Assembly: GCA_031081675.1 (NCBI GenBank)
Contig: JAVHLZ010000007.1
Location: 1-62,530, forward strand
DNA: 62,530 bases
Reading direction: 5' to 3'
DNA from: Armatimonadota bacterium
GTDB lineage: Bacteria; Sysuimicrobiota; Sysuimicrobiia; Sysuimicrobiales; Kaftiobacteriaceae
Shown here: piece by piece, positions 16,264 to 17,662 of the stretch
Numbering within the stretch: position 1 is the stretch's first letter
Layout: every line of letters begins with the position of its first letter
Program-made: the position numbers and the translations under genes
Notes under the pieces: generated by a model
Told to the model about the DNA's origin: nothing
Seen by the model: only the letters and a program-made list of their open reading frames with translations
Database searches by the model: none

Positions 16264-16352
16264 TGGTGCCGGGGGTGGGAGTCGAACCCACACGGGCTGT
16301 TCAGCCCGACAGATTTTGAGTCTGCCGCGTCTGCCAGTTCCGCCACCCCGGC
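16264..16352 (-). tRNA. tRNA-Leu (anticodon CAA)
   Basis: Acceptor GCCGGGG/CCCCGGC; anticodon stem GCAGA/TCTGT around CTCAAAA (anticodon CAA, reading UUG). A long variable arm (GGGCTGAACAGCCC hairpin), T loop TTCGACT and encoded ACCA identify a type II leucine tRNA. It lies between polA and the divergent thiolase gene. Confidence 0.96.
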
Positions 16353-16422: not shown

Positions 16423-16451
16423 TTGCCCGGGCCGACGGCGCCCCCTATGAT
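16423..16451 (+). promoter_or_regulatory. Promoter of the tRNA thiolase gene
   Basis: TTGCCC (16423-16428) and TATGAT (16446-16451) with exactly 17 bp between. It faces away from the tRNA-Leu promoter and would give a leader of about 55 nt before the ATG at 16514. Confidence 0.6.
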
Positions 16452-16513
16452 GACCCTGGATGGCGCGGGCTGCGGGCCCGCGCGGGCGGACGGCGGACCC
16501 TCGGAGGTGCGCC

Positions 16514-17662
16514 ATGAAGGTCAGGATTCGCCACCAGCGGCGGGATGTGGAACTCCCCGACGCCGGACGGGTGCGGGACATCCTGACCCGGCTGGGGATC
16601 AACCCCGAAAGCGTCCTGGTCATCCGCAACGACACCCTGCTGCCCCTCGACGCCGAGGTGGGCCCCGACGACACCCTGGAGATCCGGCCGGTGGTCTCCG
16701 GAGGCGCCCTCCGCTGCGACCGGTGCGGGGAGCCCGCCGCCGTCGACGTGCGCCGGCACCGGACCACCCTCTGCGGGCCGCACTTCGTCGAGTGGTTCGA
16801 GCGGCAGGTGCAGCGGGCCGTGACCTCCGAGCGGATGTTCACCCCGCAGGACCGGGTCCTGGTGGCGGTGTCGGGGGGCAAGGACAGCCTGGCCCTGTGG
16901 GATGCGTTGTTGCGGCTGGGCTACCAGGCCACCGGGCTGCACATCCACCTGGGGCTGGGCGGGTACTCGGACGCCTCCCAGCGCGCCTGCGAGGCCTTCG
17001 CCCGCGCCCGCGGGGCGCCGCTGCTGGTCGCCCACCTGCCGACGGTGGCCGGGGCGGGGGTGGAGGACCTGGCGCGGGCGACCGGGCGGGCTCCCTGCTC
17101 CGCGTGCGGGCTGTCCAAGCGCTACCTGTTCAACAAGATCGCCCTTGACCAGGGTTTTGACGTGGTCGCCACCGCCCACAACCTGGACGACGAGGCGGCC
17201 CTGCTGCTGGGCAACCTCATCGCCGGCCAGCCGGACGCCCTGGCGCGGATGGCTCCCGTCCTGGAGGCGGGCCCGGGGCTGGTGCGCAAGGTGAAGCCCC
17301 TGTACCGGATCGCCGAGCGGGAGACGGCCGCCTACTGCGTCCTCCGCGGCATCGACTACATCCTGGAGGAGTGCCCCCGCAGCGTCGGCGCGCGCCAGCT
17401 GCTGATCAAGGAGGCCCTGAACCTGATCGAGGCGAACGCTCCGGGAAGCAAGCAGGCCCTGTACTGGAACTTCCTCGAACACGTCCGGCCGGCGCTGGAG
17501 CGGCAGCGTCCGCCGGTGACCCTGCGGGCCTGCGCGCACTGCGGCCAGCCCACGACCGCCGAGGTGTGCGCGTTCTGCCGCATGACCGAACGGGCCGCCC
17601 GCCGGCTGCGCGTCCGCGCGGTGGCGGCCGCGCCGGACACCGCGCAGCCCGCGCCGGCGTAG
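16514..17662 (+). CDS. Fusion of a ThiS/MoaD/TtuB-like sulfur carrier to a TtuA-type tRNA 2-thiolase
   Basis: Residues 1-64 form a beta-grasp ubiquitin-like domain ending in Gly63-Gly64, the C-terminal mark of TtuB/ThiS/MoaD carriers. A TtuA/Ncs6-class enzyme follows: N-terminal zinc site Cys68, Cys71, Cys87, His90; PP-loop VSGGKDS (Ser120-Ser125); Cys195, Cys198 (PCSAC) and Cys287 (EECP) matching the three iron-sulfur ligands of TtuA; C-terminal zinc finger Cys340, Cys343, Cys352, Cys355. TtuA makes 2-thioribothymidine at tRNA position 54, a thermostabilising change. In known systems TtuB is separate and its free C-terminus is thiocarboxylated; here the Gly-Gly is followed directly by Ala-Leu-Arg. 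ATG 16514 has GGAGGTG upstream. The substrate position is inferred. Confidence 0.88.
   Translation: MKVRIRHQRRDVELPDAGRVRDILTRLGINPESVLVIRNDTLLPLDAEVGPDDTLEIRPVVSGGALRCDRCGEPAAVDVRRHRTTLCGPHFVEWFERQVQRAVTSERMFTPQDRVLVAVSGGKDSLALWDALLRLGYQATGLHIHLGLGGYSDASQRACEAFARARGAPLLVAHLPTVAGAGVEDLARATGRAPCSACGLSKRYLFNKIALDQGFDVVATAHNLDDEAALLLGNLIAGQPDALARMAPVLEAGPGLVRKVKPLYRIAERETAAYCVLRGIDYILEECPRSVGARQLLIKEALNLIEANAPGSKQALYWNFLEHVRPALERQRPPVTLRACAHCGQPTTAEVCAFCRMTERAARRLRVRAVAAAPDTAQPAPA

Follow-up and report, generated by a model that had tools for sequence, protein, structure and literature searches.

A TtuB–TtuA fusion with an internal Gly-Gly, a predicted MoaX-like proprotein for tRNA thiolation

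In the window (the entire 62,530-nt stretch of DNA analysed here) a sulfur carrier of the TtuB type is fused to TtuA, and its Gly-Gly lies inside the chain. Thermus thermophilus has the same two proteins with the same catalytic residues (PDB 5gha and 5ztb), but there TtuB is a protein of its own with Gly-Gly as its last residues. Judged from its sequence and by analogy, the fused chain is probably a proprotein of the MoaX kind, predicted to be cut after Gly64 by a JAMM protease to give native TtuB and TtuA. The sequence-only reading had left three possibilities: a protease cut after the Gly-Gly, sulfur moving by another route, or a domain that serves for docking alone. The first is favoured because the Gly-Gly is constant among the fusions, the search of the genome turned up no second TtuB, its MoaD–MoaE fusion belongs to a type for which cutting is known, and its JAMM protease is intact; there is also an E1 and the precedent of MoaX, and from these we infer the cut.

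A carrier fused to its acceptor and cut at Gly-Gly is a theme already known from MoaX, the fused MoaD–MoaE of Mycobacterium tuberculosis, in which a cut after Gly82 is needed for activity (extract of PMC4326299). In Deinococcus a JAMM protease cuts a MoaD–MoaE fusion at Gly-Gly (extract of PMC8832034). Like the window fusion, both place a carrier with internal Gly-Gly ahead of a sulfur-using enzyme, but they belong to the molybdopterin pathway rather than to tRNA, and the cut demonstrated there is predicted here. ThiS–ThiG and MoaD–MoaE fusions, with the same carrier–acceptor theme, were listed by Iyer and others in 2006; the extract of PMC1779556 names no fusion to TtuA. No description of a TtuB–TtuA fusion was found in the open-licence literature. 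The window fusion would carry the proprotein principle seen in MoaX over to tRNA thiolation.

The fused gene and its two halves

The features of the locus are itemized in Table 1. The fusion of carrier and TtuA that had been claimed from the sequence is borne out, with both halves matched by profiles and by PDB entries within one frame. The promoter with 17-bp spacing is also present as a consensus match (mean 0.0 in 50 shuffles), a match of this kind being no proof of function. A tRNA-Leu (caa) gene (16264–16352, minus strand) lies directly upstream and is divergent from the fused gene. The DNA repeat pattern searched for gave 0 matches in the window.

Table 1. Features of the fused ttuB–ttuA locus (window coordinates)
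Feature	Position	Strand	Basis or remark
Sigma-70-like promoter match, TTGCCC-17-TATGAT	16423..16451	+	9/12 consensus positions
Shine-Dalgarno-like GGAGGT	16503..16508	+	5 nt ahead of ATG
Fused ttuB–ttuA gene, 382 aa	16514..17662	+	single unbroken frame
TtuB/ThiS/SAMP2-type beta-grasp carrier, residues 1–64, ending SGG	16514..16705	+	Pfam, PDB matches
Gly63-Gly64, internal; predicted cut after Gly64	16700..16705	+	conserved in 36/36 distinct fusions
Junction Ala65-Leu66-Arg67, Gly-Gly to first zinc-ribbon Cys	16706..16714	+	
TtuA N-terminal LIM/zinc ribbon, Cys68, Cys71 onward	16712..16789	+	PF22082
PP-loop SGGKDS, residues 120–125	16871..16888	+	protein alignment
[4Fe-4S] ligands Cys195, Cys198	17096..17107	+	invariant in alignment; aligned with Thermus TtuA
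Lys202, aligned with Thermus Lys137 at the active site	17117..17119	+	
[4Fe-4S] ligand Cys287	17372..17374	+	invariant; aligned with Thermus TtuA
C-terminal zinc ribbon, Cys340–Cys355	17531..17578	+	alignment

Taken alone, residues 1–64 score as Pfam ThiS (PF02597, 32.6 bits against a cut-off of 22.5, E 1.2e-7) and as SAMP2 (PF21965, 31.1 bits against 27, E 3.1e-7), and residues 7–64 match Thermus TtuB in the PDB (5ztb_E, E 7.8e-9). The arrangement of Gly63-Gly64 followed by Cys68 of the zinc ribbon is as the sequence-only reading gave it, with three residues in between. The encoded chain runs 318 residues beyond the Gly-Gly and so lacks the C-terminal Gly-Gly of a TtuB/ThiS-type carrier; the carrier half is called a relative and not a free-standing TtuB. 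A C-terminal Gly-Gly does not define the encoded TtuB family, because 58 of 84 distinct separate TtuBs also carry residues past it; these too would often need trimming. In an AlphaFold2 model (88 rows; mean pLDDT 94.5, pTM 0.84) the sole segment below a pLDDT of 50 is residues 62–64, at the Gly-Gly joint.

From Cys68 onward the chain is a predicted complete TtuA. Residues 67–92 match TtuA_LIM_N (PF22082, 34.9 bits, cut-off 27) and residues 68–370 match Thermus TtuA (5gha_A, E 2.6e-105). Structural alignment of this half with Thermus TtuA 5ztb_B gives Z = 40.8 and rmsd = 1.8 over 300 residues with 54% identity; the rows of the structure look-up mostly cover residues 67–348, i.e. the TtuA half and not the carrier half. 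All three cluster cysteines that had been named are present and, together with the PP-loop and Lys202, they are invariant across 11 aligned proteins of the phylum. Cys195, Cys198, Cys287 and Lys202 correspond to Thermus residues 130, 133, 222 and 137 respectively (offset 65); the role of Thermus Lys137 is treated in extracts of PMC7138817 and PMC3980101. The half scores 63.8 with NCBIfam TIGR00269 (cut-off 62.75) and 245 bits with NF049949 (TtuA, Pyrococcus-type by its name; cut-off 450). With zinc ribbon, PP-loop and the three cluster cysteines present, it is a predicted [4Fe-4S] PP-loop enzyme of tRNA 2-thiolation.

Single-base changes were scanned over 13 junction positions (104 substitutions, insertions and deletions in all). 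None of them split the frame into two intact genes, which required TtuB to end at a stop within 60 codons and TtuA to have a start of its own. Sequencing error was rejected on this result. An assembly error of the draft genome would have some room in that no second genome of the genus was among those searched, and yet it merits almost no credence, given the same scan and the occurrence of similar fusions outside this phylum, where many genomes of one other phylum have them and some lie on contigs >2 Mb (e.g. G128:C1).

Occurrence, origins and conservation of the fusion

TtuA is present in 22 of the 43 genomes searched in the phylum; the other nine genomes of the window's family gave no TtuA-level match in this search. 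One locus (L023) is cut by a contig end and was left out. Among the remaining 21 readable loci the window gene is the only fusion, and in the other 20 genomes (L003–L022) a separate TtuB lies upstream of TtuA. Two of these 20 TtuBs end exactly at the Gly-Gly, and 18 extend 2 to 54 residues past it.

Further fusions were found in a scan of named genomes. Of the 80 best-matching TtuA loci, out of at least 572 relatives, 73 have TtuB next to TtuA and in 7 of these the two are fused; the 7 loci without an adjacent TtuB by profile were excluded from the tail counts. The class of one fused locus was then covered in 66 genomes, which include those of two loci titled Nitriliruptoraceae. A match was obtained in 51, and all 30 loci that were read are fused, while at least three unread members (G113, G114 and G117) look separate in the match table. 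Among the loci read, the fusion is common in Nitriliruptoria-type actinobacteria. The small class of L055 (5 genomes) contains two further distinct fusions (L233 and L235). The genome of L055 itself carries a fused ttuB–ttuA together with a separate ttuB, ending Gly-Gly-Ser-Val, and a separate ttuA (L234, L238, L241). In the Thermus phylum 72 of 111 genomes have a match; ten loci were fetched and three read (L243, L244 and L245), and each runs TtuB-GlyGly-TAG-ATG-TtuA in one frame, a single stop codon away from a fusion.

In a tree of 118 TtuA rows the window protein falls inside its own phylum, among rows with a separate TtuB, and the second fused group is a 33-row actinobacterial clade. The fused state requires two changes on this tree, both forced by the starred branches, which points to two independent origins, one for the window gene and one for the actinobacterial group. 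The window fusion may have arisen through loss of the stop/start overlap between two neighbouring genes, in a lineage whose carriers often already had residues after the Gly-Gly, and would fix one-to-one synthesis of the TtuB/TtuA pair. L073 and L109, titled as metagenome-assembled genomes of Bifidobacterium breve, fall among acidimicrobial TtuA rows of the tree; these titles are probably wrong.

Across the two origins the Gly-Gly is kept in all 36 distinct fusions (34 + 2 after removal of repeats), standing directly before the acceptor enzyme in each, as in MoaX. Both glycines show synonymous codon change among the fusions. Directly after the Gly-Gly stands Ala (33 fusions) or Ser (3 fusions), with an entropy of 0.43 bits at this position against 1.67–2.69 at the following linker positions (34 fusions). 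Ala or Ser stands there in 28 of the 58 tailed separate TtuBs, against every one of the fusions (p = 2e-8); the fusions comprise a single clade and one more, and neither the counts nor this p-value therefore represents that many independent events. The sequence-only reading had asked for the conservation of the Gly-Gly, and had named a separate intact TtuB combined with loss of the Gly-Gly in homologues as the mark of a relic; this combination was not found. A relic or docking-only domain is disfavoured because the Gly-Gly is constant, and was rejected as first choice.

Proposed maturation of the fused chain

Thiocarboxylation requires a C-terminus that is free. In the crystal structure from Thermus the free end of TtuB binds the iron of the cluster through its two oxygens (extract of PMC7138817), and therefore an amide at this point should not work. 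From these two points it follows that the carrier of an uncut chain would be idle. In the proposed scheme the JAMM metalloprotease of the genome would cut the fused chain after Gly64, although a different protease is possible. The cut would free TtuB with a C-terminal Gly-Gly and leave TtuA beginning Ala-Leu-Arg-Cys. This is near a normal TtuA start; the Thermus protein begins Met-Val-Cys, and the predicted product likewise starts just ahead of the first Cys, by three residues. The single MoeB/MoeZ-type E1–rhodanese would adenylate and thiocarboxylate the released TtuB, whose -COSH form would bind the [4Fe-4S] cluster of TtuA at its open iron, the sulfur then passing to tRNA (at U54 in Thermus).

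It is unlikely that the uncut chain works as it stands, with the carrier docked on TtuA in cis or in trans as a scaffold and sulfide reaching the cluster otherwise, as free sulfide or persulfide. Archaeal TtuA/NcsA accept free sulfide in vitro, and one fused genome (L060) and three with tailed carriers have no strong JAMM, perhaps because these assemblies are incomplete. Yet the Gly-Gly would then be free to change, and it has not done so in any fusion; moreover just residues 65–67 separate Gly64 from the zinc ribbon, and it is the Gly-Gly carboxylate that binds the cluster in Thermus (extract of PMC7138817).

In extracts of PMC3980101, Thermus TtuB is covalently attached to lysines of TtuA, including the active-site Lys137, and deletion of JAMM gives aberrant TtuB conjugates and ~50% less thiouridine. 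The linear fusion might by this token be a standing, regulated TtuB–TtuA conjugate, mostly uncut and inactive until a protease releases it on demand. That the cutting of MoaX is incomplete in cells (extract of PMC4326299) agrees with such control, but no sign of control was seen at the locus, where a tRNA-Leu gene lies upstream, and we consider the idea rather improbable.

The codon of Val60 is GTG (16691–16693) with GGAG 9 nt upstream, and therefore some TtuA could also start internally. That TtuA is made alone in this way, the fused chain being a minor product or its TtuB part spare, is nevertheless very improbable. TtuB would not be released by it and the genome has no other TtuB that was found. 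A start codon between the Gly-Gly and the first Cys is absent in 33 of 34 distinct fusions, and 10 of the 34 have no in-frame start codon in either the last 12 carrier codons or that stretch.

Sulfur carriers and JAMM proteases

The genome had been suggested as the place to look for a separate TtuB and a TtuC. With the ThiS profile it yields four carriers, namely the ttuB–ttuA fusion, a MoaD–MoaE fusion and two CysO-like proteins, and no separate TtuB at E up to 1. One MoeB/MoeZ-type E1 with a rhodanese domain is present and would be a shared equivalent of TtuC. All four carriers have residues after the Gly-Gly, and two of them are fused to a sulfur acceptor. The two CysO/SAMP1-like proteins, one of which scored as SAMP1, extend 13 and 20 residues past the Gly-Gly. 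The MoaD–linker–MoaE protein matches Pfam ThiS and MoaE. It is encoded at G000:C1 (L041:2560–3552, plus strand), and its linker of roughly 120 residues is made up of palindromic DNA repeats lying in frame, namely GGGGACAGTCCCC and a palindrome of the CCCTCTCCCC/GGGGAGAGGG type.

The genome has one JAMM metalloprotease with an intact metal site (PF14464, 97 bits). The site comprises a Glu and an HSHx7SxxD pattern, HSHTHTPAYPSTTD; the JAMM/desampylase metal-site motif is Glu with HxHx7SxxD. A second, weak match looks by eye like RadC. The protein scores 98.9 bits with the NCBIfam desampylase model NF041370, under the equivalog cut-off of 130, and is therefore called desampylase-like only; it is a relative of HvJAMM1 and PfJAMM1, and the fused chain is its predicted substrate. 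It resembles PfJAMM1, whose structure was solved with SAMP2; the window carrier lies above the SAMP2 cut-off.

Within the phylum JAMM cannot discriminate because it is found in 41 of 43 genomes; in 31 of these 41 its gene is ≤10 kb from a gene for a ThiS-fold carrier. Among the named loci (7/7 fused, 24/24 exact and 19/40 extended entered; JAMM counted present at E below 1e-10), a strong JAMM is found in 6/7 fused, 16/19 extended and 18/24 exact genomes. There is no link between JAMM and a buried Gly-Gly in this set (free 18/24 versus buried 22/26 genomes, Fisher p = 0.49). The predicted cut would give JAMM proteases a testable role in maturation. More tentatively, every sulfur carrier of this genome may be an inactive proprotein, with the one JAMM controlling entry to tRNA thiolation and to the synthesis of molybdopterin and cysteine alike, and the TtuB–TtuA chain may be an encoded head-to-tail version of the Thermus TtuB–TtuA conjugate; we hold this to be possible, if somewhat doubtful.

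Bacterial sulfur carriers commonly have a buried Gly-Gly. Apart from TtuB, 49 carriers of the phylum were read (the best match in each of 30 genomes and a hand-picked further set; 30 + 17 + 2 from the window's genome): the Gly-Gly is terminal in 8 and followed by a short tail in 23, and the other 18 continue into a further domain. In ten actinobacterial genomes 12 of the 30 carriers read end in Gly-Gly. In the phylum MoaE and ThiG are among the domains that follow, as is a CysM-like enzyme in three relatives. Four of these proteins were checked with Pfam, namely the MoaE of the window's genome, one ThiG and two CysM-like enzymes; the remaining MoaE, ThiG and CysM partners are named from sequence only. 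The Gly-Gly is internal in the CysO–CysM-like fusions, of which two are from relatives in the same family (ThiS + PALP + CBS; L183:1186–2877 and L184:2474–4210, both minus strand) and a third, partial one is at L191.
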